Shown here piece by piece: positions 35,762-64,000 of a stretch of DNA of 64,000 nt. The translations under genes and the position numbers were made by a program. The stretch spans positions 298,384-362,383 of the forward strand of contig JAPWGK010000034.1 of the NCBI GenBank assembly GCA_029641185.1, read 5' to 3'. The notes under the pieces are model-generated. The model ran no database searches and was not told the origin of the DNA. It worked only from the letters and a program-made list of their open reading frames with translations. How positions within the stretch are numbered: the stretch's first letter is position 1; the number at the start of each line of letters is the position of its first letter. Origin of the DNA: Pseudofabraea citricarpa. Taxonomy: Eukaryota > Ascomycota > Leotiomycetes > Helotiales > Dermateaceae.

Positions 35762-36913
35762 ATGGATTCATCAAGTTTCCCACTCATCTCATTCCAGGAA
35801 TTCCTCACGGGTTCGGAGAAGGAGAAACGTGCCGTAGCACAGAAACTCTATGATGCCTTTCACACATATGGATGGGTATATCTCGAGGACTTCGGTATCA
35901 CCCCCGACGAAATCGATGAGATGTTCGCTATGGTAGGTTGATGGGCGGATATCTGCTTGCTTAGAACTCAATGGTCGATGCTAACTTTTTCACTTGTGAT
36001 CCAGTCGAAGAAGTATTTCGACCGGCCAATAGAGCAGAAATTAGGTGAGACTTTGTCATCTGCTGAGACAAATCAAGGGTATACACCAGATGGTGCGGAA
36101 GCCAATGGCGGAACAGATCACAAGGAGGTTTGTATTGGTATCCCTAGAGATAGACGAGGACGCCCCTACTGATACTGAGAAAGTGTTATGAGCATCGACG
36201 GTTTAAGAATGAGCTCTGCCCCTCCCAAGAAAAGTTTACTGGATTCAAGGACTTCATGGATTCCTTCTACTCGGTAACTATCTCCCTCGGTATTGATCCG
36301 AGTGATTGTGTTGATAATTAAACGTCAGAAATGCTTCAACCTCTCCGTCGACGTCCTTCGAGCCCTCGCGCTGATCATGGAACTCGACGTCGATTATTTC
36401 AGCAGCGCTCTTCAAAAAGCCGATCCACAATTGCGACTGCTTCACTACATGCCCATCGCGCGGTCGATAATTGAATCTGCAGGCCACGCCCGAATCATCC
36501 CGCACACCGATTTCGGGCTATGCACGATCCTGTTCCAGGACAGCGTGGGCGGCTTAGAAGTCGATCCTTTCCACACAGGCACCTTTGTTCCCGCAACACC
36601 CATCAAGGGAACCTGCGTCATCAATGTTGCCGATCTGCTGCAGAGGTTGTCGAATGATCGCCTCAGATCAACTATGCATCGCGTCACATCACCGCCGTTG
36701 CACAAGGTCGGCAGTGATGGGATGCTGCCTGCGAGATACTCGACGGCCTTCTTTGTTCATCCCTCGCCGGATGTGGATATTGAACCGATTGTGAGAGAGG
36801 GCGAGAAGGCCGCTAAGTATGAGAAGGTCAATGCCGGACAGTGGAGGGTGATGAATACGGCAAGTAATTATAAGAGCATTTTGGGCAGCGGGGCAGGTGC
36901 TGTTAAGGTCTAA
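35762..36913 (+). CDS. 2-oxoglutarate/Fe(II)-dependent oxygenase (isopenicillin-N-synthase-like)
   Basis: Exons are 35762-35932, 36005-36127, 36184-36273 and 36329-36913; all junctions are in phase and give 322 residues. The N-terminal DIOX_N-like part contains AFHTYGWVYLEDFGI and SKKYFDRP. The jelly-roll core has the iron ligands H187 and D189 (PHTDFGLCTILF) and H245 (STMHRVTSP), and R264/S266 (RYS), the 2-oxoglutarate-binding pair. All key residues are intact. The family hydroxylates, desaturates or cyclises small molecules in the cytosol. Substrate is unknown. A sugar-porter-type MFS gene follows on the same strand about 1 kb away, but no wider pathway is evident. Confidence 0.88.
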
Positions 36914-40919: not shown

Positions 40920-42184
40920 TTACTCCTGATAGTGTGCAATCTTTACGGCCGAACTGCCGTTGAATCTATCCGTAAGCCAGTTGCGAATCTGGCCAAAATC
41001 ACGGCAGGTATGTTCCATATCAGAGTCGATGTAACTTTGCCCAATTCCAGAGTAGAAGCGGGTTGGAATCGGAGTAAGGTCCACAGTGCACTGGAGTATT
41101 TGTCTCAGCGCATCAATGCAGTGATCTATCAGATCAGCAATAGATTGATTAGCCAGCGACCTAGTACTTTCTAATATGCTCCATGGCTGGAATTCAATTT
41201 ACCTCTGTGTAGTATTCCATGAATCCCGACGTGTTCATACCGATCAGGATAGAATGATTGGCGAATATGGTCCTGGAAAAAAAGAGAGACATGTAAGCAA
41301 GAGACATTATTCTAGCCGATGGGATTGCCACAGGATAAGGAGACGATGAAGGTGAAGGCAAGGATCAGGGTTTCTCACCAGGCAGTGAAGTAGATGAAAG
41401 GTTTCAAATCTTTTTCATGTGAAGTTGATAAGTATAGTTTCTCACCAGAGACGAATAGATATAACATACCCAGCAATATAGCCCTCTTGTTGTGCATCCC
41501 AAAAGTCTTGATAATTAGGACCCCAAGCATTCCGTGCTTCATTTTCCGTCAAAAAGATATAGCGTGCTTAAAACATGCCTATTAGTAAACTAATGCTCCT
41601 TCGAAGGAGATTCATCAGTAACTTACCAGCTGTTAGTGCATTCCATGCATCATCGATTTCTTGGTTCGGTTCCCCAATGTAGCGTGGCTCGTCGTCAGGA
41701 AATTGGAGATATTCCAACCCATTTGCATCAAAAGTCGGGCCCCCGGTAAATTTAAGTCTCTTAATTGAAATTTGTGTTCTCGCATCAGCTGCAGAAATGC
41801 ATCAAGTTAGACAAGTGTATAGAAGAGTTTTCATGTACCCGAAAGAACGATAGTTGTAGAACAGCTTTTCGAAGTGCGAAGAAAGTTTACATCACCTAAA
41901 TCTGTTTTGAACCCCGTCTCAAAGCTTCCCATGTCATTTGAAAATTGGGACTCGGGAGTTTTTGACGACAGTAAATATATGCATAACAGAACAGATGCTA
42001 AATTGGATAGCAGTAACAGAAAAATAGGAGTAGTCAATGAGAAATGCCTGAATCGTGAAGTAGATTGTACGTTGTGTATTGATCTTGGATCAACTTTCCC
42101 CTCTTCGATTTGGCCTTCATCCATCAGATTAAGTGACTTGTAGCTGTACTTGAAAGAATCACTAGACAGATAAGGGTTGAACAT
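40920..42184 (-). CDS. UstYa-family oxidative cyclase candidate 1 (DUF3328)
   Basis: Six exons: 41839-42184, 41627-41788, 41470-41566, 41379-41409, 41203-41272 and 40920-41125. Splicing is in phase and gives 303 residues. An N-terminal cytosolic tail is followed by one membrane helix (about residues 47-72, TTPIFLLLLSNLASVLLCIY). The lumenal domain has FPDDEPRYIGEPNQEIDDAW and both family motifs: H207-x2-H210-C211 (FHLLHCL) and H234-x2-H237-C238 (HRDHCIDALRQ). UstYa-type proteins bind copper or another metal through these motifs and cyclise or oxidise the Tyr-containing core of fungal RiPPs in the secretory pathway. Two copies of a TCCCGCGGGA palindrome lie 185-268 bp upstream of the ATG. It belongs to the cluster with the precursor at 55.3 kb. 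Confidence 0.9.
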
Positions 42185-42368
42185 GATTGGAAGAAAGAGA
42201 AATTGAAAATCCGATACAATGAATGCGGGACTCGTTGATTATTGGCGTACGTAAGAAGAGACCTGTAACACAATAGATACTTCGATAGAATGGTAGAAAA
42301 TAAATGAAGAGTAATGGTTGGGGAACAACTCTTGGCTCCTTGCCCAATTTGCTCAAAGATCTTTGAAT

Positions 42369-42378
42369 TCCCGCGGGA
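42369..42378. promoter_or_regulatory. TCCCGCGGGA palindrome, copy 1
   Basis: A perfect 10-bp palindrome containing CCG/CGG half-sites, the usual target triplet of Zn2Cys6 proteins, within AATTCCCGCGGGATTT. It is a candidate binding site of the cluster regulator at 43791. Confidence 0.5.
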
Positions 42379-42441
42379 TTTACACATTCGTACTTTATTT
42401 CCATTACCTTCAGTATTTTAATACGGTCGTATATTTCGAAA

Positions 42442-42451
42442 TCCCGCGGGA
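42442..42451. promoter_or_regulatory. TCCCGCGGGA palindrome, copy 2
   Basis: The same palindrome within AAATCCCGCGGGATT, 73 bp from copy 1 and upstream of UstYa candidate 1. Confidence 0.5.
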
Positions 42452-43790
42452 TTGATATCTTCTTAGGCAACTCAAATATGGTAGCAAGACGGAATACAGG
42501 AGATTGGCTGCGCACACAGAGATCTTCGTCCTAAATTGCCTAAATAGCAGCCAACTCAAAGAACCCTATATCGTAATCGTTATCAGTCAATCTAGCCTCT
42601 ACTAATAAGTGGCTACCACAATTCATATCATCAAAAGAACATTATCAATAACCAATCAAAGTGTTGGATTCTCTACTCGACTTCTCCTCTCATTCTCAAG
42701 TCATTTTCACACCAAACCAGAAATGATATAATCCGTGTTAGCATTGTTCAACATATTAGGCAGCAGATTCCGTGATAAACAGAAATATTTAACTACCAAT
42801 GATCATTGGACATTCGTAGCCGTAATTTAGAAATCATGATGGAAGGGAATCAATGTCACTTTTGCTGCGGTTCTCCTGCAAGTAATCACTCGCTTCTCCT
42901 TGTCCAAAAGTTCACTACTACACACTACACACGCCAACGGTTCGGACCGGCGTGTCAGTGCAACCTTATTTTCCACAAATCGTGTATAAGCTTTGCCTAA
43001 ATCCAACTGAAAGAACACCAAAACGCGGAATATTTCCGTACAGCAGAATCGCATTTAATATGGACTTATAAACCGCCATGAGCTCTTATCAAGCAGCTAT
43101 CTTATTGCCAACTCCTGCTATGTTTGCATCTTCATAAAATTGTATGTGCTATTATATACAGTCCGGGCATCGCATAGAATTATGCTTACTGGTCTAGTCT
43201 TATGTTTGATACCAAATTGCTGTATCTTTAATGGTAATTTGAAATTTCCCATCTACAATTTCTAAGTCAATGTCATTTGCTTCAAGTATGGGGCGTAAGC
43301 AGCATTAGCGCAGGCGGAGTTGCATTGGAATGAGGCAAGTGAGTTCCTACATAAATGTAGGTAGCTAAGGTAAGCAGCATCATATTGTAACGTTGATATC
43401 CAAACATTTAACTGAACCATATCTCTGCTTAGCGAACCCACACTGACCGCCGTTACACGTCTGATCTTTTGCGGCACGGATTTCGGGTATGGTTGGAAGC
43501 ATTCCGGATGCATGGCTGTAGATCTCAAAGCTTGCGTCCGTAAGGCTGCTTTGTGGCACAGCTTTTGCATATGCTTAAGACCTTCCTGATTCAGCACCAC
43601 GAAGCTCAAGGATCATGTGCACGCGCATAATGCGGGCACGAATGTTTTGACGTAAATAAAACTTACAGAGAATTGAGTAAGGTAACGATAGTATCACCTC
43701 GTGGGCTATTGCTCCGGTCAATATGTAATATATATGCTAAGAATCCGTGCAGTCCCGCTTGGCACCAAGACTTAAGACTTAGCTTCACAT

Positions 43791-44982
43791 ATGATGAATG
43801 AGTCGGCTACCCCTGCTAGACCTAAACTCTACCTTGGCACTGCCTGTGATCAATGCTTTCGATGCAAAGCTCGATGTTCAGGAAGCCGACCTGTGTGTCA
43901 AAGATGCCACATTAATAGCAGTGCTTGCACCTACAGTATTTCCAAAAGAGCTAAGAAGGCCAAAGGCGGAAGAAGCCACACGTCGAAAAGCTTCAGTGGT
44001 GAACGACCAATCGACTTGTCTTCCCCGGAACACTCAAATACAACTCTGGATGATAATAGAAATACTCAAATTTCTTCATCCCGAGGAGGCTATGATATAG
44101 CTGAAAGGAACGTAAGTTGCTTTGAGCTTTTTCTCTTGGGGATGTTTGGTCTTATTGACAAGACCGTAGTCCGCTATTGATACATCTTCCCACTTATCAG
44201 AATACTGGGGAGCCAATGATTTTTCGTTATTTATGGGGATTGAAAACGCAAACGACGACAGAGTCTCGGAAAGGATTGAACATGGGTTTTATGGCTTTCC
44301 CCCCACTCCCGTATACACGGATCTGACAAGTCTACATTCTGACGAGGTCTTGGTTTCAAGAACCGAATCCTCCCAAGCTCTCAATAATCAACCACATCAG
44401 GTTTCTCCAAATCCTGTTGAAGAAGCTCTCGAGTCTGAAAGGGACGCTACGTCTTTCATTTTTAAAAATGCTCTCATTTTTGATACCGAATCAAAACAGA
44501 CCATTAGAGAACTCTCTCTAATCAGACTGCAAACCAGAGAACCAGCTCCATTTGATTCCACACTGCTTCTGGCCAAGCGAGGCCTCCAGATTGCTACCAT
44601 GTGCCTAGCTCAGAATGACGGCAACCAACCAAGTTCAACAGATATAAGAGGATCGACAGTTCTTGCACTTGCTTGCATTCATATTACTAGCCTCGTTCTA
44701 ACATGCTACGCGGATCTACGGCTTCAGATAAAGCAGGAGAGGCGAAGTGGTGACCGGCAACTTATTCGAATCGGGGATTTCAGTGTTGAAGGAGAGGATA
44801 TCCATCATGAGCTGGTCGTTTTGATCATGTCAAAAGAGATCAAGTGCTGCAGAGAGGTCGTCAACAGACTGGAAAGATGGGTAAATTGCTTGGATCAAGA
44901 GAATGAAACCCAGAACCATTTTCTTAAAGACTTTATGGAAAGTCTGTTGTTGTGCATAGAATCACTGGAGATCAATCGCTGA
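43791..44982 (+). CDS. AflR-like Zn2Cys6 cluster regulator
   Basis: Exons are 43791-44111 and 44170-44982, with a 58-nt intron (GTAAGT...CGTAG) in phase, giving 377 residues. The zinc cluster is at residues 19-46 (ACDQCFRCKARCSG, then C-x2-C-x6-C), with spacing C-x2-C-x6-C-x6-C-x2-C-x6-C. A basic linker (KRAKKAKGGR) follows. The C-terminal half (EYWGANDFSLFMG; LLLAKRGLQIATMCLA; STVLALACIHITSLVLTCYA) matches the AflR-type regulatory domain of secondary-metabolite regulators. It sits between UstYa candidate 1 and the ABC exporter and probably switches the cluster on. The TCCCGCGGGA palindromes are its likely targets (inference). A later acceptor (CAG at 44200) would shift the frame and was rejected. 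Confidence 0.85.
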
Positions 44983-45184
44983 ATCTCTGCATTTTTAATG
45001 ATAATGAATTGCTTCGTTCTAATAATTTCTGTTGAATATAAATCAGAGGGTGGTGGTGATTATGAGTAGGGATGGACAGTTTACACACGAATAGCAGTCT
45101 TCATACCGGGCGATGGCAAAAGCTTTATTATTATCTGAAAATCAAAACTTTGTTCCAATCACAGCTCCTATATTCTAACATAGA

Positions 45185-48100
45185 TCAATTCTGTAGCTCC
45201 CACAATTCCTTGAACCTAGACTCACTTTCAAGGAGATCGTCAGGTTTTCCATATTCTAAAATCCTACCCTGCTCCAAGACTACGACAATATCAAAATTCC
45301 TGATTGTCCGTAGTTGATGTGCTACAGTAAGTACAGTGCACCCTTGGAATTTTTCTTGGACCAACTTCATTATTTTAGTTTCGGATTCTTTGTCAACGTT
45401 GGAGGTTGCTTCATCGAGCATAATAATACGCGATCGGTTAGCCAAGGCGCGGGCGAGGCACAAAAGTTGCTGTTGCCCGCTAGAGATTGTGCTAGCCTCT
45501 AATACAGAGTCAAGACCTCCTCGCGACTGAATCAAAGGTAACATTCCAACTTCGACCAGAGCCGACAGAATCTCTTCCTCTGTGCGAATACCGTTGGGGT
45601 CAATGTTGAAGCGGAAAGAGCCGGGTAGAATCATAGGGTCTTGGGGCAGAACAGTTAAACTTTGTCGTATAACTTCACGGGGAATAGATGCAAGATCGAT
45701 GCCATCGATAGAGATAGTACCATCCTGGATATCGTTAAGTCTAAGGATACTGAGGATGAAAGAACTCTTTCCACTGTAAATAGAGTTAGTACATAATATA
45801 ATCAGCCAGGTGAGGTGAACTTTCCTGCCTGTCCTGCCGCATATACCTACTTTGGTACCAGAAGCAATGTTGAGTGTAATATCTCGTAATATAGGTTGGG
45901 TATGAGCACTGCTTTTATATTAATTGATTTGCTATACATTAACTCAGTTGAGTCTCTCTTACCCATAGCTGACCGTCAGTCTCTTGAATTCTATAGCTCC
46001 TCTAGACGGCCAGTCCTCTCTCGGGATGTTTATTTCCTGGGGAAGATGCTCAGATGGAGTCTCCAGTGCGAAGCTCTTCGATCTCGATATTGCACCTATC
46101 GATGTTTCCATCTGAGTCCAAGACTGAATCAGGGTAGTGAGAGTGCGACTGAAGCTGACAATGTTGACAAGTGCAACGCCCAGCGCGCCACCCGAGGACA
46201 CACCACGAACTTGAGTAGCTAGGGCCACAATAGTAACAGCAATAATAGTGACCACCAAGTCCATGACTAGGTTCAGCCAGCGTTGAATACAATACATCAA
46301 GTAATAAGGCTTTTGTGAATCATCCAGAAATCTCTGATTGGTCTTCTGAAATTCAGAATGCCACGCGAATGCTCTGATTGTGACTAAACCTTGTAGTGTT
46401 TCGAGAAAATGAGAATAAAGTGGAGCCTTGGCCTCTAGATCTAGGAATCTAATCTGCCTTGAGGTAGTCAAATAGAATTTCTGGATGACGTATAGAAGCA
46501 CTACCAAAACGGGGTAAGCCAGTGTCGTCCATTTCGAAGAGACGGCAATTAAAATAGCTGCAGCGATGCATTCGAATACTCCATCAACCATCTGTAAAAA
46601 AGCGAAGGGAAGTTGCATGTCTATAAGAGACATATCTTGACTGAACCTATTCAGTATAACGCCAGTGTCTGTTGAGGTGAAAAAGTGAAAAGGAGCCGAT
46701 AAAACCGTGGCCAAGAGAACTTTGTGCAGCTTAATTGACGAGCGAGGCACAATTTGGACAATCAAAACCCAGACCGATGCGAGCATGAGGATGATAGCAG
46801 ATACTCCAAGTAACGCATAGACAACGAGATACATCTTTTGATGCTCGCCGGCATGCTGCCTCTCAGACTCAGACCACCATTTGAGCCAGATGTTCGGAAA
46901 GCTACTGCAAAATATGCAAGCGGCAAAAACAAGCAAGAAAATGGTCATAAGAGGCCAGCCCATTGCGTTAAAGTAGTAAAAGTAGAAACGAAAGTCCCCA
47001 ACTTTACGAGCTAGATCTACTAATCTGGCGTTAAGCTCTTTGCTAGAGATGTTTTTACTTGGCTTTTGCAAGTCTACAACGTCGGACGCCAAATCTTGGA
47101 GGATTGAGTCAGCTTTAGGATCTACCATAGATGGTGGACCTATATGGAGAATTCTCCCGTCGGGATTTAACGCAATTATAGTGTCCATAACTTGCATAAG
47201 CCGTGCTAGTAGTTTATTTCATCAGACCTATCCTTTGCAAATGCTAATCATTAAAATTGAGACATACCATCATGTGTCGCAAGTAAAACTGTCATGCCGT
47301 GTCTGCGACAAACACCTTCGTCGCCAAAAACCCTCTGCACAATAGTATGTGCCGTTGTTGCATCCAGACCACTCGTGACGTCATCGAGGAGAAGCAGCTG
47401 CTTTTTTGCATAAAGAGCTCTTGCTAAGCTGAGTCGTTGTTTCTGGCCTCCACTCAAACTAATTCCTCTACTTCCGATGACCGTTCGATCTCCTTGTGGC
47501 AGATTTGAGAAGTCTGGTTCAAGCACACATGCACTCACGATGATTGCATACCACTCACTGTCAAATTCTGAGAATCCCAGAATAATTTCCTGGGCGGAAG
47601 TATTCGGAAGCCAAGCTGTTTGTCCACAGAATCCGATGTTCAGGAATGGAGTCCTTTGTAGCGTCCCACTTACCAGATATAATTCCCCAAGGAGAGCTAG
47701 AAGTAAAGTACTTTTGCCACTACCCACAGGTCCAGTAAGCATAGTGATGCTTCCTTTCTTCAGTGTGACGGAGATTTCCTGCAAGACGGGAGGGCCTTGA
47801 TCTTTGAAGGAAAAGCTAGCGTGATCTAATGATACCAGATTAACTGCCTCATTCCTAAGACTATACTCCCAGCTCTTCAACTCAACTGCGTCTGGTTTCA
47901 TTTCATCTTTCTTCGTCAATGGCAACGAGCTGCGGATTGTTAAAGCTTGATGAGATGACGCATTTGTTGTTTTCTCGATAGAGAGTAGGTAATTCTGAAT
48001 TCGATCGTAACAACCAAGCGAAGCCGTGAAAGCCGGCCAGGCATGCATGAACAAGAATATAGGCGAAGTTAATAGTGAGATGAGGGAAAGTGATGTGAAG

Positions 48101-49829
48101 GCTGTGGATGGATCTAGCCTCGACTTCTCATTCTGTAATAAGAGAACGTAAAAGACAAATGCAGTGACTGGGCCCATAACCTGCAGAAGAGTGCCAATCG
48201 TGTTCGAGGCCACATTTAGCTGACGATATGATTTGGACATTTCCAATTCTTTGATTCGAAGATTATGAATAGTCGATGAAATTTGGTCGGAGAGGCCAGA
48301 CATCCGGATCACTTTGATGTTGTTAAGCATGGAACTTGTTGCTGTAATCCGGCTCTGGACTGCATCTACCCAGGTCTTTTGGGCCTTTCTAGATAACTTT
48401 CCCAGCGCAAAAGCAACCAATGTGCAACCTAGAACAAAGTATTAAGATAGATCCAAATTAAGGGAACACCCGACACACATAAAAATAAAATACAGTACTT
48501 ACCAAAGGCGATCACAACGGGAGCGAGGCATGCCAATCCGATCTCTCGCCACAATAGATAAATGGCGAGTCCCACTTCAATCGGCGTCGCCCACAGTACA
48601 TCGAAACGTGACATGCCCGCAGCGATTCTGTCAATATCTGTACTCATGTGGGTTATTGCAGCAGTACCGGTAGTATCAGAATGATGCAACTTCATGGTAG
48701 CATCATATACCAAGCTGACTAAACCACCACGGATCATTGTAATACAGCGATAAATCTGATGCTGGTAGAAGGCGGTGCTGATGGCAATCCCTAGATAAAT
48801 TAGGACCGTTGCTGCAATCAAAGCTCTTCCCACATTTATCTTCTCTTGACTATCGGGTTGCAACAACAAAGAAATGGCACGGTTGATGAGCAGTGGTTGA
48901 GATATCGTGAATCCAATAAGGCAGATTCGAGGAAACAGAATTAGCAAAAGGGGTTTCCGAAAAGTTTTCAAAGTTGCTAATAGCAGAGCGTGATTTGCAC
49001 TCTTATCGCATGTCGACCATATAGATCGAAAACGTTCTAGAAACGATCCTGCCGATAGCTGGGGATCCAAAGGAAAGAGATCTTCCAGACGTAACATTTT
49101 AGCCGACCAGCCTCGAAGAAGGAGAGAATTCAGCCACCAGAAAACACTACGATTAATGATCCCTCCTAGAGCTTCGGGTGAATACCATCGATAAGGTTCC
49201 TTTAACATGCCCTGTTTTTCTACGTTCTCAAGAAGTAGAATTACTGCCTTAGCTGCAACACCAGCAGTGAATACTGCTGCAAGTGGGCGGTCGAAGTTTC
49301 GTAGCCACAGTGTACGTGTCTGGCAAATGTCAAAAGTGATTGTAAAAAGGAGATATATGATTAGAGTAGGTGAGGGATGCTCTGATCGATAGTGCTCGAG
49401 ATAGGATAGGGCCGCCATGGCGAAGGCAACACCAAGGGAGCAGCAAGATGCTACTACTGATACGGGAGTTGCTCTGCTCGCCAATGTGGTATAAAAAGCT
49501 ATCAGCGCGATTTGTGTTGCTCCAAAGCAAAATATTGCACTCTATAAAAGTTGAGGTAATGAGTGGCTCCTCAAACACAAGGTACGGGTTGGATTTACAA
49601 GCTTAGCTGGAACTAGCAAGTCGATCGACTTGCTCTGTAATTTGTTTTTATTTTTTGCTATTAGGAAAAGTCGAGGGACTGAAAACATGATAAAAAGTAG
49701 CGATGGAAGCATCGAGAAGATAGACTGCTCAAAGAGCAGTGTGAAGTCAAAGCTCTCACGACAACCTAGGACTCTAGGGCCGAAGGAATTATCTGCCCAA
49801 GACTGGCAGAAATCAGATGTTTTCTCCAT
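45185..49829 (-). CDS. ABCC (MRP-type) full ABC exporter
   Basis: Six exons: 49599-49829, 48503-49541, 47269-48428 (boundary uncertain by 1 nt: phase favours 47268), 45963-47205, 45825-45908 and 45185-45773. The total is about 1448 residues. The N-terminus (FGPRVLGCRESFDFTLLFEQ) is typical of fungal ABCC proteins with an extra TMD0. NBD1 has GPVGSGKSTLL, LSGGQKQRLSLARAL and LLLLDDVTSGLDA. NBD2 has GRTGSGKSS, ISSGQQQLLCLARAL and IIMLDEATSNVD. The NBD2 Walker A is assembled across an intron whose donor reads AG|GAAAGT instead of GT, an unusual or damaged splice site. ABCC pumps export conjugates and peptides to the vacuole or outside. Here it may protect against or secrete the cluster product. 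It is convergent with the regulator and divergent from the MFS gene. Confidence 0.87.
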
Positions 49830-50334
49830 CTTTCTAAATAGATAGGGAAAACAAGTTGCAAATACCAAAGGGTCTTGCGCGAGTAATCTGATCGAGTAAA
49901 GGAGAATAAGAAGCGGAGGCTATTGTGAGGATTACTCTAATTGCTCCTAGCAACTGTTGGCAACCTTAAACCCGTCTTTTCCACATCAGGTAGTACCACA
50001 AAGCCCCACTCTTGGTTGATTCAAGAATGTAGCCAATAGCCACTTTACGGGGTAATATGGCTACTACCTTGATCTATTCCGTCTTAGTGATGGTCAGGGT
50101 TGTTGATAAGCTTCTGAATGGCCCCACTACCCAAATTTCTACCTGCCACTTACGGTAGCCACGGAATTTCAAACCCCAATGGCTTTCCGTCAAGCTTTCA
50201 TTAGCGGGTATGCTTACTTCGTACATAAGCTGGGTACCTTATTTCCGTACGTGCGTGGAATATTGTTAGCCCGACAATGGAAATAAAAGTACAATCCAGC
50301 TACCGTCGATGCATTTACTTTCTGAAGCAAGACC
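49830..50334. promoter_or_regulatory. Divergent promoter of ABC and MFS exporters
   Basis: This 505-bp interval separates the two transporter genes, which are transcribed away from each other. No TCCCGCGGGA copy was found here. Confidence 0.45.
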
Positions 50335-52065
50335 ATGGCTGAAGAGAGAGAGACAGATCCATTGTTGAGTTGCGATAATTCTCGCCAGTCATCATCCAGT
50401 TCAACCACAGAATCACAATCTGGCCAACAGTCTACTGATAATAATGATAAGCCTATCTTCCGACACACTTTACGTGTTATCGTTCTGATAGCGAGCGTCC
50501 TTCTGATATCAGATCTTGCTGGCTATGCAGCCTTTGCTCCTCAGCTTGACATTTATGAGGGCATTATTTGCCGGCAGTATTACTCGACAAGTGATCACAT
50601 CGACCGGGAGAAATGCAAGGTCGAGCCTGTGCAAAGCGAACTCGCTCTGATCAATGGCTGGTCGGACACTTTTCCAACGATCCCAGGTAGGACCTCTAAA
50701 TACATGGAGCACTTCTTATATTTCACAAATCTTATGCAATATTTCCAGGAATTCTTTTAGCACTTCCATATGGAGCTCTGGCAGACCAAATCGGCCGCAA
50801 ACCAGTCTTGTTGTTGGGAATGATTGGCTGTCTGCTAGGTGAGGCTTGGATCAGAATTGTCTGTAAGTCCTGATTCCCAATATTAACAGTATCCTACAAC
50901 GCAAGCCTTGCTAATTTTCGAAACACAGGCTGGCTTTCGCCAATAATTCCAATTAGGGCAGTTTGGTTTTCGGCTCTGTCGCCGTTGATCGGGGGCGGAG
51001 CTCAGACTGTATCATCATTGATGTTTGTTATGATTGCAGACATCTGTTCAGTGGAAAGAAGGTATGTCAAAGTATTTATACAAGATTAGCCAATAGACTT
51101 TAATACCTTTCTAGAACAACTGCGTTCTCCCAGCTCTCTGCGGCCGTTTTAATTCCAGAAGTCATTGCTGTCCCCATAAGCGCCGCCCTAATGTCTTACA
51201 GCTCTTGGTTGCCATTCATGATCAGCTATGCTTTGTATTTGATCGGCTTTTCGATTGCCCTTTGCGTCCCGGAAACATTACAAGCAAAAAGGAAAGAGCT
51301 CCTGCTGGTGGATGAAACAACACCACTTCAAGGCAATAAAACCAAATTTAATCGAGAGCATATCTTGGACCGATTTCGTGTGGAGCTCCTCAAGGTACAG
51401 ACTTCGATAAGCGCTGTACGACGGGATTCTAACATTATTCTCGTTCTTTTCTGCTTTCTCATTTCCTGTCTAGGAAGGCAAGCCATTCCATTGATTCTGC
51501 AATATGGACCGAAGAAATTTCACTGGACAATTGCTCAGGTAACGAGTCCCAGGGAACTATTCTACCCTTGATTCTGCTAACCTTATAGACATCATATCTT
51601 ATGTCTCTCCGCGGCAGTGTCAACCTGCTCTTACTATTTGTCCTCTTACCTGCCATATCTGAGTTCCTATCTGCCAAGTTAAAGTTGGATCCATCAATGA
51701 AGGATAAGCGACTCACTCAAGGTGGTATGACATTACTTTTAGCAGGATCGGCTCTGATCTTCTTTGCTGCATCGCCTGCAGTTTTCGTCCTTGGTCTGGT
51801 TATCCGGGCTTTGGGTTCCTCGTTTCAGATTACTGCAAGAAGTCTCATTACTTCAATGGTTGACCAGCATTTGTTGGGGACGGTCTATACCGCTATTGCT
51901 GCTGTAACCTCAGCAGGTATGCTAGTAGCTGGACCATTGATGGCATATACTTTCAAGTGGGGGATGCTGCTGGATGGAATTTGGTTGGGAATGCCCTTTT
52001 TAGTTGCTGCCGGTCTTTATGCAGTGGGACTTCTATTGATTTCTCTGACTAGACTAGATCGCTAA
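50335..52065 (+). CDS. MFS drug/metabolite exporter-like transporter
   Basis: Exons are 50335-50686, 50749-50862, 50929-51061, 51115-51538 and 51589-52065, giving 499 residues. An acidic, Ser-rich cytosolic N-terminus precedes about twelve helices. Motif A-like ALADQIGRKPVLLLG follows helix 2, and a central cytosolic loop separates the two halves. No sugar-porter signature is present. The look is of a drug:H+ antiporter-type or UMF-like exporter, as often found in secondary-metabolite clusters. It is divergent from the ABC exporter and converges on UstYa candidate 2, whose stop codon lies only 43 bp away. Export of the RiPP product or an intermediate is inferred from position. Confidence 0.8.
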
Positions 52066-52108
52066 TTTCAATTCTCAACGAGGGATATGATTTTTATGGT
52101 CTAGGAAG

Positions 52109-53148
52109 CTATTCTACATGATGGTGATGAGAATTTGAGGGCTCTGTTATATAATCTTCCGGAGCGTGGCTTTCCATGTACTCATCCAACGATTGCTAGG
52201 TGCAAATGTTAGAATATTCTTTTGTTTTGTGATTGAGATAGTACAGAAACTACTCACTCGTTTTGCACACTTATGAGGAACTTCATATCCACTGATTGTC
52301 CCTCTCAGAGCACCCTTTCCAGTAGGGTACTCCAGTGTCATATCCATGTGGCACAGAATTATTTGACGAAGATAGTCGTAACAATGCGCCTTGTGGATGA
52401 GTCGTACCTCATCCGGTGAAAATCTTTCCTTGGTCATATCGACCTGCATTCCTATCAAAGTGCTGCGATTTTGTAGTTGATCCCAAAATTCATCGCGGAG
52501 CATTCTCTAAAGATAATTATCAGCGTTATGTCAACCTAGCTCCTTTTTGTTTCCAAGAAGAGAAATGAATGTATTTTCATACAATACAATGATACTGATG
52601 AGCCCAGCTAACGCCATAACGATCAAACCCTCCATCAAAGGGTGCTCCGGCAGGGAGATTAAAATGCTCTGGATTTTCAATTATCGTAAACCCTCGCGCT
52701 TTTGGCAAATCGGCATCCCATAAAGCATCTGTTTCAGGGGTTGGGAAAAGATCTAGAGGTTGAAACGTTCTCATTTCATATTGTTCTTTTATGGATTGAG
52801 TTAGATGAGAATCGACAAGAGCAAAAACAACCAATCTCGAAAGAATAACTTACTCTCGGGGAAGACGGTATTTTGTTCATAGGAATGCGAATGGCTTCGT
52901 TCTCTTACCATGGAAAATATCGCTGCCAAACCAGCGAGGTTCATAACGAACAGTGCGACCCAAAAATACATAATCCATCTGTGTTTCTTGGGAACTATGT
53001 CTAGCCCAAGTTCGTCTTCGTCGCTGCGATCATTCTGATCTGAAGTCTCAACTTTAGAATACGTCGTTCTTGCAATAGGTGCTTGCCCGCCCCAATGATT
53101 TCGAGTTAGAGATTTCCAACGCATGAATGTCCGATGATAATTTAGCAT
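52109..53148 (-). CDS. UstYa-family oxidative cyclase candidate 2 (DUF3328)
   Basis: Exons are 52854-53148, 52583-52785, 52258-52506 and 52109-52195, giving 277 residues. The first ATG in frame is at 53148. A polar N-terminus is followed by one membrane helix (WIMYFWVALFVMNLAGLAAI). Both metal motifs are present: H161-x2-H164-C165 (WAHQYHC) and H204-x2-H207-C208 (HKAHCYDYLRQ). The stretch LEYPTGKGALRGTISGYEVP before HKC is typical of the C-terminal part. It should act in the secretory pathway on the Kex2-released core peptides. All active motifs are intact, and the gene is on the same strand as UstYa candidate 3. Confidence 0.9.
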
Positions 53149-53773
53149 CGCCAGTCTATTGGAATGTTTGAAGTTGGGTTTATTCAAGAAAGCTACCCGA
53201 GATGTGAACAGTCCCTATGAAGAATAAAAATGAGCATGAAACTTGTAGAATGCCGAATTTGTTCTTGTTTAGAACGGAAGAAACCATGAAATCCCAGGTT
53301 CTGAGGTCTTGGAGTATGTTAAGAAAACGCAGTTGGCCTGATTTGGTGTGCTCGGGATTTTGATGCTTACATACCTACTTTTCTCTACGGGTTGTGATAA
53401 AACGCCGGTAATACACGACAATCGCCCGCCATCTGCCCCGGTGGCAATCTAGGTTAATTTTGGGTAATTTCATTGCAAGGCGATATCCCGTCTCTGATTT
53501 GCCGTCGATATTACTTTAAGTTGGTCTAAAATGAAATCGCTTTAGTGCATTTTCTCTTCTCAGCACTAATTTCCAAATCACTCGCAGAAAAGAAATGGAG
53601 AGGTATCCAAGATCATCTTAATCTCTAATGTAATTCAGAAAGCTCGGTCATTTTCTGTACCCAATTCAACTGGATGGTGTTGAATTTAAATAAATCAAAC
53701 GTCAAATTATTTTTATTTCTTCGCTGTGCGCAAGAGAGATTCTAATCGCTCAATTGACATTGGTATTCCATTA

Positions 53774-53808
<35 letters not shown>

Positions 53809-53833
53809 TACTCGTAATGGAAATGGTAGAAAA
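53149..53833. other. Intergenic with long C homopolymer
   Basis: This interval is the promoter of UstYa candidate 2 and the 3' flank of candidate 3. It contains an uninterrupted run of 31 C at 53775-53805. Confidence 0.6.
53775..53805. repeat. 31-nt poly(C) homopolymer
   Basis: An unbroken C run (poly-G on the minus strand) begins 29 bp beyond the stop codon of UstYa candidate 3. It may be a hypermutable tract, a G-quadruplex former, or an assembly artefact. Confidence 0.8.
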
Positions 53834-54912
53834 TTACCCCTCGACTGTGTTTTCCTCTCGATGCGGAGGCCACGGGTTTGATGGTGGCCGCACTATAGCC
53901 TCGGGAGCAGCTTGATGCTGCTTTGTCCACTCCAAGATGCTGTCCCAATTTCGACATTCATGCTTAACATTAAAGTTTGCAAATGGAAGTTCCTGTCTGT
54001 CCACCCATTGCCATGTTACGAGAGATATGTCGCCCTGGCACATGGCGCTTTCACGCAGAACCTCGATGCAGTGGTCTAGAAAATCCATTCATTAGTAAGA
54101 AACAACAAGATGAGCTAATGAACGGCTTCTGCCAGGTTCATAATTTTAACTAACCTACGTGTTGCCATCGAAGCTGCTCAGTTTCATGGGTATCGTAGTA
54201 GTCACGGAATATGTACATTCGAATGAAGTCCCTAGGTCTTATTAATAACAAATTGGATCGTGTTGAGCTGAACTTACAAGCAATGAACATGGTGGAAAAC
54301 CTCTAGCGTTGCCATATAGCCACTACCGTCTGCTAACTCAATTGATGTTTGGTTGATTTTATCCAGATCTTCTTTAGAAACTGCGATGTTTCTCCCTATT
54401 TTTGCCGCAGCATTAGTGTTCTGTAAGAGCTTCGTTGGATTCGGTATGTCATTACATTTTGTGATATCTTCCCATGCTAAGGTTTGTTCCGGTCGGGGCT
54501 TGCCCATATAGATATTTGTTGAGTCGATTGTTGTATTGGTTTCAACAACTTCATACTTAACGGCCTCCCTCGCGGGTGCTATATATAACATAAATAAGTC
54601 AGTTTTCACTTCACTGGCGTATTTTAGTGATGGATTGGAATGCACTCAACAGTAGATGAGATCAAGTGGACCAGGAAGTGATGAATCTATCTTAGGACAC
54701 TCTGTGCGTAGACGTAGACTTCTCCAGAGTAGATTTGAAGTCCAGATCAAATTGACCACGCATCCAAGAACCAAAAATATTAAAAGTTTGCGGTGCCCAG
54801 TCTGTCTACTTGAGTAGAAATGGTACTCTGTGTTGTCATTCAGTAATTTTTCGTCGTCTCCGTTATCTGTGCTCTCGTCTTCGAAGTCGGACTGAAGTTT
54901 TGGAGAAGCCAT
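53834..54912 (-). CDS. UstYa-family oxidative cyclase candidate 3 (DUF3328)
   Basis: Exons are 54651-54912, 54278-54578, 54155-54231 and 53834-54075, giving 293 residues. An acidic N-terminal tail precedes one membrane helix (KLLIFLVLGCVVNLIWTSNL). The lumenal part has PAREAVKYEVVETN and GKPRPEQTLAWEDI. The two motifs are H183-x2-H186-C187 (FHHVHCL) and H212-x2-H215-C216 (QHVDHCIEVLRE). The C-terminal HECRNWDSILEW is also family-like. It is transcribed divergently from the RiPP precursor through a 398-bp shared promoter that carries a TCCCGCGGGG palindrome. That arrangement makes it the most likely primary modifying enzyme for the precursor. Confidence 0.9.
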
Positions 54913-55071
54913 TATCTTAATTGAGCCAACAAATTGAAAACTGGTTCGAAATTTTTGTTTCTCAAAAAGTGTAACTTGAATCTCCTACTACTGTCTATAC
55001 ATTTGAATGTTAACTATTCACTTAGTAAGACTAGCGAGCCAACCAAAAAACGGTCATAAACATCTATGAAA

Positions 55072-55081
55072 TCCCGCGGGG
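55072..55081. promoter_or_regulatory. TCCCGCGGGG near-palindrome, copy 3
   Basis: It matches the two sites upstream of UstYa candidate 1 in nine of ten bases, preceded by AAA as in copy 2. It lies about 160 bp from the UstYa 3 start and 230 bp from the precursor start. Confidence 0.5.
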
Positions 55082-55212
55082 TAGTTGAGGTGCCACAAAA
55101 GTTCCCGGGATTTGGAATGTCTATCTATCGATCAACCAACGAAACAAAGGGGTTATTCGGCATTTGATTCTATCTCATTATACTCACTGCCTATAGCTTT
55201 TGTGAATTATAC

Positions 55213-55218
55213 TATAAA
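55213..55218 (+). promoter_or_regulatory. TATA box of RiPP precursor
   Basis: TATAAA within ACTATAAATTCG, about 93 bp upstream of the precursor ATG. The position is reasonable, the assignment tentative. Confidence 0.35.
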
Positions 55219-55310
55219 TTCGATATGGCTAGAAATCTTCTTTCTCTCGTCACAATTTGCCATCTTTTCAGAACCTTAAATCAATTGACATAGAGGGTTA
55301 GCCAGTCACA

Positions 55311-55781
55311 ATGCATCTAAACATCATTATTCCAACCCTGGTCCTTGGCCAGTTGGCATTGGCACTTCCTGCTCCCAACTCAAATGGTAAGTTAGTTCAA
55401 TGCAATCAAGTTCATATGCTAAGATAGCAAAAAGTCGAGATGGTAGAGAAGCGCGCCGAGGAAGTTACAGACTGGATCTACCCTCCCCCAGACCGCAAGG
55501 CAAAACGTGACGAAGAGGTCTCCGAGGAGGTCCCCTGGATCTATCCCCCTCCTGATCGCAAGTCTAAGCGTGACGAGGAAGTCTCCGACTGGATCTATCC
55601 TCCACCCGATCGTAAGGTCAAGCGCGACGAGGAAGTCTCCGACTGGATTTACCCTCCACCTGATCGCAAGTCTAAGCGTGATGAGGAGGTCTCTGACTGG
55701 ATATATCCTCCACCAGATCGCAAGTCGAAGCGTGATGAAGAGGTCTCCGACTGGATCTACCCTCCACCTGACCGCAAGTAA
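55311..55781 (+). CDS. Dikaritin-type RiPP precursor with six WIYPPPDRK cores
   Basis: Exons are 55311-55386 and 55435-55781, with a 48-nt intron (GTAAGT...AAAAG), giving 140 residues. A signal peptide (LNIIIPTLVLGQLALA) is followed by LPAP and a short leader. Then come six repeats, each opened by a Kex2-type KR: DEEVSD (variants AEEVTD and DEEVSEEVP) plus the invariant WIYPPPDRK and one variable residue (A, S or V). Cores are encoded at 55473-55499, 55536-55562, 55590-55616, 55644-55670, 55698-55724 and 55752-55778. Spacing is 63, then 54 nt four times. The last core ends directly at the stop. A secreted, Kex2-cut repeat precursor next to UstYa genes is the hallmark of ustiloxin/asperipin-type RiPPs. 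Tyr in the core is the probable cross-link site; the true core limits are unknown. Confidence 0.93.
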
Positions 55782-56239
55782 ATCTACGTTGAGGTATCTC
55801 TTGCTATTGGGGTACACAGGGTATGATGATGGAACAAATTTGATTGTACTTTTATATAGTTGATAGCAATGGAGCAGCTAGATTGCCATCGATATATACT
55901 AGTTAGGAGAGGCTATGAGGATCTAAGTTGAGAAGAGAATACACTCGTTTACAGATGCCCCGAATGACTATCTGGTGTTACTCACTTAATTTGAACAACA
56001 GACATCCATCACCTCTAGTAATTAATCAATTCCGAGGCAAGTATCGGATCCTTGCGTGACCTTGAAAATAATAATTAAGAGGGTTCTAAGCTATTAGCTT
56101 CCAGAGATCGTGTCAAAGATGGACGTATCACATAAATATTCAGCGCTAATCTAAACTGAGAGTAATAGTATTATAGTAACAATTATGCTACTTTAACCAT
56201 AATCGATATACCTGTCTAAAGCCTCAAAACGAGCATGAT
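55782..56239. other. Intergenic, no gene seen
   Basis: This is the 3' flank of the precursor and of the converging sugar-porter gene. No modifying-enzyme gene is hidden here. Confidence 0.45.
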
Positions 56240-63246: not shown

Positions 63247-64000
63247 ATATATATATTATATAATTTGCGACTCTATTATATAAAACCGTTATATAACGAT
63301 AAAAGTCTATTATATTTATATTATGCCAAGGTAGTCCCACTATTTTGTAGCTAATAGAATCGTTAGGATTCGGTAGATTCCTATAATATTATAATTCTAA
63401 ATTCGTTAATATTATAAGATATTAGTTTATATTATACTATTAAATCGAAATAAGTACTAATAATATATAATCCTTTATACGACTCGATCGAGAGATTAAG
63501 TTAATATTTAAGAAAGCTCTTAAGGAAGGAAAACGAACGCTTATCGCAAAGTATAAAGCTTATAACCTAAAAAAAGCCTAGAATATTACCTAATAAATAC
63601 GATTATATCTGTTAGTTTATAAGAAATATATTAGCTTATTACTTATAATAAAGAAGTAAAAGCTTATATATTATTTTAAGCCTATAAAGTCTAATAGAAA
63701 GCTCTTATTTACGAAAGTAATATATATATTAACGGCTAATTTTTTTACGTTTTAAATACTAGAATAAAAGGAGTTCTTTTAAGTATTATACTTTAAAGTA
63801 CCTAGCTATTATAAACTTGCTAGGCTACTACTTTCGGAGGTATACGAGAAGGTAAAAGAGGAGGTTTAATTTATTACTAACGCTACTAATAATATATAAA
63901 TTATTAGTAATAGATTATCTAATATTATAAAAAAGAAGGTAAAAAATATATCTTTCCTAGTAAAAGGTATCTCCTATTATTAGAAGAGTATTATTATTAG
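63247..64000. other. Extremely A/T-rich, RIP-like island
   Basis: By eye this stretch is almost all A and T, with abundant TA steps and few G or C outside short CG/AG islets. No frame is coding. It looks like a repeat mutated by RIP, a fungal C-to-T process, and it reaches the window edge. I cannot name the original element. Confidence 0.6.

Follow-up and report, generated by a model that had tools for sequence, protein, structure and literature searches.

A putative dikaritin-type peptide cluster with repeated WIYPPPD units and no clustered tyrosinase in Pseudofabraea citricarpa

The stretch of DNA analysed here (the window, 64,000 nucleotides in full) belongs to the ascomycete Pseudofabraea citricarpa and corresponds to G000:C28:298384-362383, i.e. 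to contig JAPWGK010000034.1 (C28) of a 44 Mb assembly in 43 contigs, its right edge being the contig end. Seven adjacent genes at 40.9-55.8 kb of the window, encoding a repeat-containing precursor, three UstYa-family proteins (U1, U2 and U3), a Zn2Cys6 regulator, an ABC exporter and an MFS exporter, look like a cluster for a dikaritin-type ribosomally synthesised and post-translationally modified peptide of the tyrosinase-less asperipin-2a layout. A preliminary description of the window had proposed a dikaritin-type cluster with an unfamiliar core and with neither a tyrosinase nor an S41 peptidase among its genes, and the present analysis supports it in this. The genes, in window positions, are the following:

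55311-55386 and 55435-55781, plus strand: precursor gene, 140 amino acids, with a 48-nt intron (55387-55434)
53834..54912, minus strand: U3, UstYa-family, 273 amino acids when an extra 60-nt intron is removed; motifs HHVHC and HVDHC
52109..53148, minus strand: U2, UstYa-family, 277 amino acids; motifs HQYHC and HKAHC
40920..42184, minus strand: U1, UstYa-family, 284 amino acids in six exons; motifs HLLHC and HRDHC
43791..44982, plus strand: Zn2Cys6 regulator, 377 amino acids in two exons, with Zn_clus
45185..49829, minus strand: ABC exporter, MRP (ABCC)-like, two nucleotide-binding domains; separate open frames, start codon picked by eye
50335..52065, plus strand: MFS exporter, 499 amino acids, spliced by eye, with MFS_1

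The genes had been described as contiguous, and indeed no unrelated gene was found inside the cluster: 10 further open reading frames (ORFs) were scanned, one of them outside the reported stretch and two across its edges, and none gave a Pfam match above the cut-off (nine had no match at all at an expectation value of E <= 0.01). The tenth, antisense to the precursor (55419-55877), gave a match below the cut-off and was rejected as a gene, being the repeat read backwards.

The precursor is, as had been claimed, a Kex2-repeat protein. Its leader is hydrophobic and signal-like (judged from the sequence, without a predictor) and ends in LALPAPN, after which six WIYPPPDRK units follow with KR sites between them; a 54-bp tandem array was found here independently of the gene model. 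Seven of the 27 nucleotide columns vary among the six cores, all of them synonymous third positions, and the 15 core pairs hold 56 synonymous differences over 85 sites against 0 nonsynonymous ones over 320 sites. Of the 81 possible single changes of the core 17 would be synonymous, which gives seven out of seven a probability of about 2e-5 under the simplifying assumption of uniform and independent changes. Because all seven variable columns are synonymous, the core repeat is beyond chance and under constraint. The fungus' own genome yielded no further copy of the precursor. Pfam matches of this precursor and of its relative described below (HPIP_like, DUF6835 and RlmN_N) were rejected, being below the cut-off and from unrelated families.

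Within a unit the order is EEVSD, WIYPPPD and then RK. Since the residue after RK varies among the units (A, S or V) and the final unit stops at DRK, the mature peptide probably lacks this residue. The extent of the core can be approached by analogy with a phomopsin-type precursor on contig C42 of the same genome, whose units consist of an acidic stretch, a core ending in Asp and Lys residues; this layout suggests that the core ends at Asp here too and is thus WIYPPPD. All six units read WIYP, and the EDYxI core signature of the ustiloxin/phomopsin subgroup, as given in PMC6339444 (papers are cited by PubMed Central identifier, from excerpts of their text), is absent.

The search for relatives, which the preliminary description had proposed, led among others to the fungus Talaromyces stipitatus. 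Among 4,713 candidates the precursor had a single match at E <= 0.001, TSTA_022830 (P0001), a protein of 77 amino acids with three WIYPDRK units and 66% identity over 86 amino acids. U3, in a 293-residue model, had 13 matches among 222 candidates, the best of which was P0002, also of T. stipitatus, with 74% identity over 245 amino acids to the revised U3 model; next came a metagenome protein (67%) and proteins of the lichen fungus Xylographa, of Bisporella and of Icmadophila (46-55%). For P0001 and P0002 alike the contig is given as one of 4,031,217 bases, which is consistent with linkage of their genes. The only match of U2, among 872 candidates, was a partial protein of Aspergillus ibericus. 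T. stipitatus thus resembles the window fungus in its conserved leader and W-I-Y-P-D-R-K residues and in holding the best relative of U3, and differs from it in that its three cores (WIYP in 3/3) are WIYPD without the extra Pro-Pro and that no U2 relative was found there by a search through shared five-residue words, which a distant relative could escape.

The residues W-I-Y-P-D are therefore invariant in the two fungi while the number of prolines differs, from which we infer that W-I-Y would hold the crosslink, with P(PP)D as the tail. Such a pattern is what is expected of a crosslinked W-I-Y, and it speaks against a linear product, in which the UstYa proteins would merely desaturate or hydroxylate Pro, Asp and Ile and no ring would be formed. 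A linear peptide would suit a Pro-rich core that ends in Asp, and similar activities are described: three UstYa proteins of the phomopsin pathway, PhomYc, PhomYd and PhomYe, are assigned to Ile, Asp and Pro desaturation (PMC10880069), and the DUF3328 protein CctR hydroxylates (PMC12435403). Taking both sides together, we regard a linear product as unlikely.

The claim that three UstYa genes keep both HxxHC motifs was confirmed by the spliced models, 3/3 of which hold the two motifs, and by matches to PF11807 (U1, E = 1.7e-36; U2, 1.2e-21; U3, as the 293-residue model, 3.8e-51). An NCBIfam scan of U1 gave no match. The first, 293-residue model of U3 has an insertion, and because P0002 is without a corresponding one, U3 probably holds an extra in-frame intron of 60 nt (54396-54455). 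The predicted structure, which is that of P0002 and not of U3 itself, has a long N-terminal helix (residues 41-74) and places the HxxHC motifs on neighbouring helices (162-177 and 188-207); a PDB sequence search gave 0 matches. CctR is described as a membrane-associated binuclear copper enzyme that requires oxygen and electrons; in its predicted dimer the HxxHC pair sits on a coiled coil of four helices (PMC12435403). The layout of helices and motifs in the P0002 model agrees with this description.

The remaining genes may serve for regulation and export. AflR-type regulators carry the AflR Pfam domain besides Zn2Cys6, and the full model of the regulator, scanned at E <= 1, gave Zn_clus (1.7e-6) as the sole Pfam family above the cut-off and one match below it to an unrelated family; the earlier label of AflR-like was rejected and the gene is named here for its Zn2Cys6 domain. 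The ABCC pump stood as far as its ABC domains are concerned (separate open frames gave matches to ABC_membrane and ABC_tran), whereas the ABCC part rests on MRP as the best NCBIfam match of one scanned piece, far under the full-length cut-off. The MFS exporter was borne out by a match to MFS_1 (E = 2.4e-21) in an eye-spliced model that reads as one protein.

A palindromic element may connect several of these genes. Its sites, which are unstranded, are:

42365..42380: palindromic site 1, GAATTCCCGCGGG, upstream of U1
42438..42453: palindromic site 2, GAAATCCCGCGGG, upstream of U1, containing the perfect 14-bp dyad AATCCCGCGGGATT
55068..55113: palindromic site 3, GAAATCCCGCGGG, with the variant TTCCCGGGATTT, in the divergent U3/precursor promoter
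53288..53360: inverted pair of AAATCCC half-sites, upstream of U2

The window has three copies of CCCGCGGG, all of them in promoters of the cluster, two before U1 and one in the divergent promoter that U3 shares with the precursor. The pattern GAAWTCCCGCGGG has four copies in 44 Mb, three of them in these same promoters, and a reversed control pattern has 0 copies in the genome; the fourth copy, on contig C39, was treated as chance (the ORFs around it were read by eye, and C39 has 0 UstYa matches). The pattern TCCCGCGGG has five matches in the window, a number reached by 0/100 window shuffles. AAATCCC is enriched as well, with 6 of its 15 window copies lying in the intergenic DNA of the cluster, 3,375 bases in all. 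Of these six copies, four are in the named sites or in the variant next to site 3, and the other two make up the inverted pair before U2. Sites of Zn2Cys6 proteins typically hold CCG/CGG triplets, and the everted CCGCGG core of the palindrome resembles the pleiotropic drug resistance (PDR) element of yeast.

That the precursor and U3 share a divergent promoter with a near-unique palindrome, found also before U1, and that relatives of both occur in one other species, T. stipitatus, argues against an ordinary, unmodified Kex2-processed signalling or toxin peptide beside UstYa genes that act elsewhere. Precursors of this kind are common, since 6,120 of 7,878 surveyed Kex2-repeat precursors are without a nearby UstYa gene (PMC7329392), and yet for this locus we hold such an explanation to be very improbable.

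By the definition quoted in PMC12048977, dikaritins are recognised by a DUF3328 (UstYa) protein with two HxxHC motifs, and the original five-gene definition (Ding et al., quoted there) includes a tyrosinase, methyltransferase, transporter or peptidase. The cluster offers HxxHC pairs in all three UstYa genes, a signal-like leader (by eye) followed by cores repeated at Kex2 sites, and the ABC and MFS exporters for the transporter or peptidase; a clustered tyrosinase is lacking. The features of an asperipin-like cluster, namely a precursor, UstYa, a transporter, a Tyr-containing core and no clustered tyrosinase, are all present. The cluster is real and well formed, and it is likely to be functional.

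The asperipin-2a cluster of Aspergillus flavus comprises four genes for a precursor (aprA), one UstYa homologue (aprY), a reductase (aprR) and a transporter (aprT), and its UstYa homologue can serve for Tyr ethers to beta-carbons with no clustered tyrosinase (PMC6514808, in the excerpt). Both clusters have a Kex2-repeat precursor, UstYa, a transporter and an aromatic, Tyr-containing core, and neither has a tyrosinase (PMC6514808). The A. flavus cluster differs in its core FYYTGY, single UstYa gene, reductase and, as far as the excerpt of PMC10512285 goes, absence of a regulator, whereas the cluster here has a regulator, two exporters and as many as three UstYa genes.

Genes absent from the cluster were sought in the whole genome. 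Tyrosinase had 28 genome-wide matches and 0 on contig C28. No S41 peptidase was found in the cluster, the sole C28 match among four in the genome being about 216 kb off. For Methyltransf_23, the one methyltransferase family searched genome-wide, 28 matches were scored out of 110 candidates and 0 of them are on C28, and no methyltransferase was found in the part of the window's ORFs that was Pfam-scanned. At C28:119326-122916 (L035, about 216 kb from the cluster), another UstYa match lies about 3 kb from the sole S41 match of that contig; a simple single-frame scan gave no Kex2-repeat candidate in L035 or L036.

The genome holds 46 UstYa exon matches, 45 of them over the cut-off. A Kex2-repeat scan of single open frames, which covered the window and 20 stretches, each 10 kb long, at some of the UstYa loci, gave five candidates, i.e. 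the precursor of the cluster and four others. One of these is the precursor exon C42:1064209-1064853 (L027 4209-4853, minus), with 14 units of ESVEDYVIPID / YVIPFD type, and the region C42:1060570-1077139 (L027 and L028) also holds four UstYa exon matches and one match each to S41 and tyrosinase. As the phomopsin core is YVIPID (PMC7099791), the C42 locus is, by its sequence, a phomopsin-type cluster. The other three candidates, each in a stretch with UstYa exons, have repeats around YDQRALY (L023 8446-9219, plus), HNYVTLKVKG (L030 6370-6798, minus) and STALYSYIVAD (L040 3044-3274, minus).

The C42 cluster and phomopsin resemble the window cluster in having several UstYa genes and a core that ends in Asp, with an acidic stretch before it and basic residues after it; the last exon of U1 is closest to a UstYa exon of C42. 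They differ in the order of the core residues (Y-x-I in phomopsin, W-x-Y here), and C42 in the tyrosinase and S41 matches near its precursor, of which the window cluster has none. Homology between the flanks of the window precursor and the phomopsin-type precursor is weak and suggestive only; for the unit flank of T. stipitatus the permutation fraction is 0.05.

The tyrosinase matches on other contigs, among them C42:1074557, bring up the possibility that a tyrosinase acts in trans and hydroxylates Tyr first, which would lead to an ustiloxin-like DOPA-type (dihydroxyphenylalanine) ring. The last exon of U1 would agree with this, being 63% identical to the UstYa exon C42:1076954-1077139 about 2 kb from the C42 tyrosinase match. 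We find this route quite improbable, given that 0/28 tyrosinase matches are on C28, that the asperipin cluster likewise lacks a tyrosinase in the excerpt of PMC6514808, and that the core here is without the YxI order of ustiloxin and phomopsin. Because tyrosinases do occur elsewhere in the genome, one of them near the phomopsin-type precursor of C42, a chemistry of UstYa proteins alone is not deducible from sequence.

The special novelty attributed to the cluster in the preliminary description was not upheld, given the four-gene asperipin-2a cluster (PMC6514808), the WIYPD relative in T. stipitatus and a survey of 1,461 fungal genomes in which 1,758 of the 7,878 Kex2-repeat precursors have a nearby UstYa gene (PMC7329392). 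The excerpted survey also states that tyrosinase genes are not significantly accumulated around these precursors (PMC7329392). A cluster of this kind, with a new core and no tyrosinase, is therefore to be expected. A 2022 review counts only five reported dikaritins (PMC10512285). Searches of openly licensed PubMed Central text, supplementary files lying outside them, listed no relevant paper on this core, on TSTA_022830 or on such peptides of T. stipitatus, and the precursor may well be listed in some survey table.

On either side the cluster is bordered by sugar transporters. Past one of them, about 4 kb outside U1, lies an exon of a 2-oxoglutarate-Fe(II) oxygenase (window 36278-36910), which was left out as a tailoring gene because of the sugar transporter between and is probably not part of the cluster. 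Between U2 and U3 there is a run of 31 C (53775-53805), which may be an artefact of sequencing or a place where the length changes. The final 200 bases of the window (63801-64000, the contig end) look very AT-rich, in the manner of repeat DNA that has been mutated, and a search of the window for a doubled telomere repeat found none.

Taken together, the sequence and the analogy with asperipin-2a make it fairly probable that, in this set of seven genes, each of the six WIYPPPD copies of a predicted-secreted precursor would receive an oxidative crosslink, likely Tyr3-Trp1, from the three UstYa proteins with no clustered tyrosinase. In this scheme the precursor would enter the secretory route, Kex2 would cut after KR, and the basic residues would be trimmed back to Asp, while the UstYa proteins would act inside secretory organelles by copper oxidation. 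By analogy with asperipin, the phenol of Tyr3 might form an ether to the beta-carbon of Trp1, giving a three-residue Trp1-Ile2-Tyr3 ring (14-membered by our own atom count) and a Pro-Pro-Pro-Asp tail. U3 would be the best candidate for the ring step, because the species of its closest relative has a precursor that shares W-I-Y-P-D and not the extra prolines. Desaturation or other further oxidations might fall to U1 and U2. The Zn2Cys6 protein may switch on U1, U3 and the precursor via the palindrome, and export of the product may be the task of the ABC and MFS proteins.

Several points weigh against this scheme or parts of it. The palindrome was picked after being seen; 30/300 Markov controls had a 10-mer placed at no fewer than three separate sites, and 2/300 had as many such 10-mers as the three observed. 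If one mismatch is tolerated, CCCGCGGG shows no enrichment in the window (16 matches versus 11.6 expected, 11/100 shuffles reaching 16). No exact site lies near the start codons of the ABC and MFS genes, and about 1.3 kb separate the sites before U1 from the start codon of the regulator. Confidence in the P0002 model is modest (mean predicted local distance difference test, pLDDT, 68), and its PDB fold search gave 0 matches at E <= 0.001 (25 at E <= 10). The lack of a T. stipitatus protein among the matches of U2 and the tyrosinases elsewhere in the genome count in the same direction. In the precursor, one of the six units has the irregular flank EEVP before Trp instead of EVSD/EVTD; the 3/5 identity of the window flank to the phomopsin-type precursor is reached by 20/120 permutations (fraction 0.17), and the unrelated precursor at L030 likewise matches the window flank 3/5. 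Finally, the crosslink partner could be the Trp indole or Ile instead.

The most novel form of the scheme is a UstYa-only pathway that would close a Trp1-Ile2-Tyr3 ring between the Tyr phenol oxygen and the beta-carbon of Trp and leave oligoproline-Asp as an exocyclic tail; it is tentative, and we would put it at well below an even chance. If true, the ring would follow the plan of phomopsin, with three residues and a tail ending in Asp, at opposite residue polarity and with no tyrosinase, and its tail would be of evolvable length, from WIYPD to WIYPPPD.

Of the UstYa family, one member has been shown in vitro to be a copper enzyme (PMC12435403). The cluster may offer a compact test system for the placement of the ring and for the division of labour among three UstYa proteins, its assets being the lack of a clustered tyrosinase, a near-unique promoter site and the natural core-length pair WIYPD/WIYPPPD, with the phomopsin-type C42 cluster of the same genome as an internal comparison.

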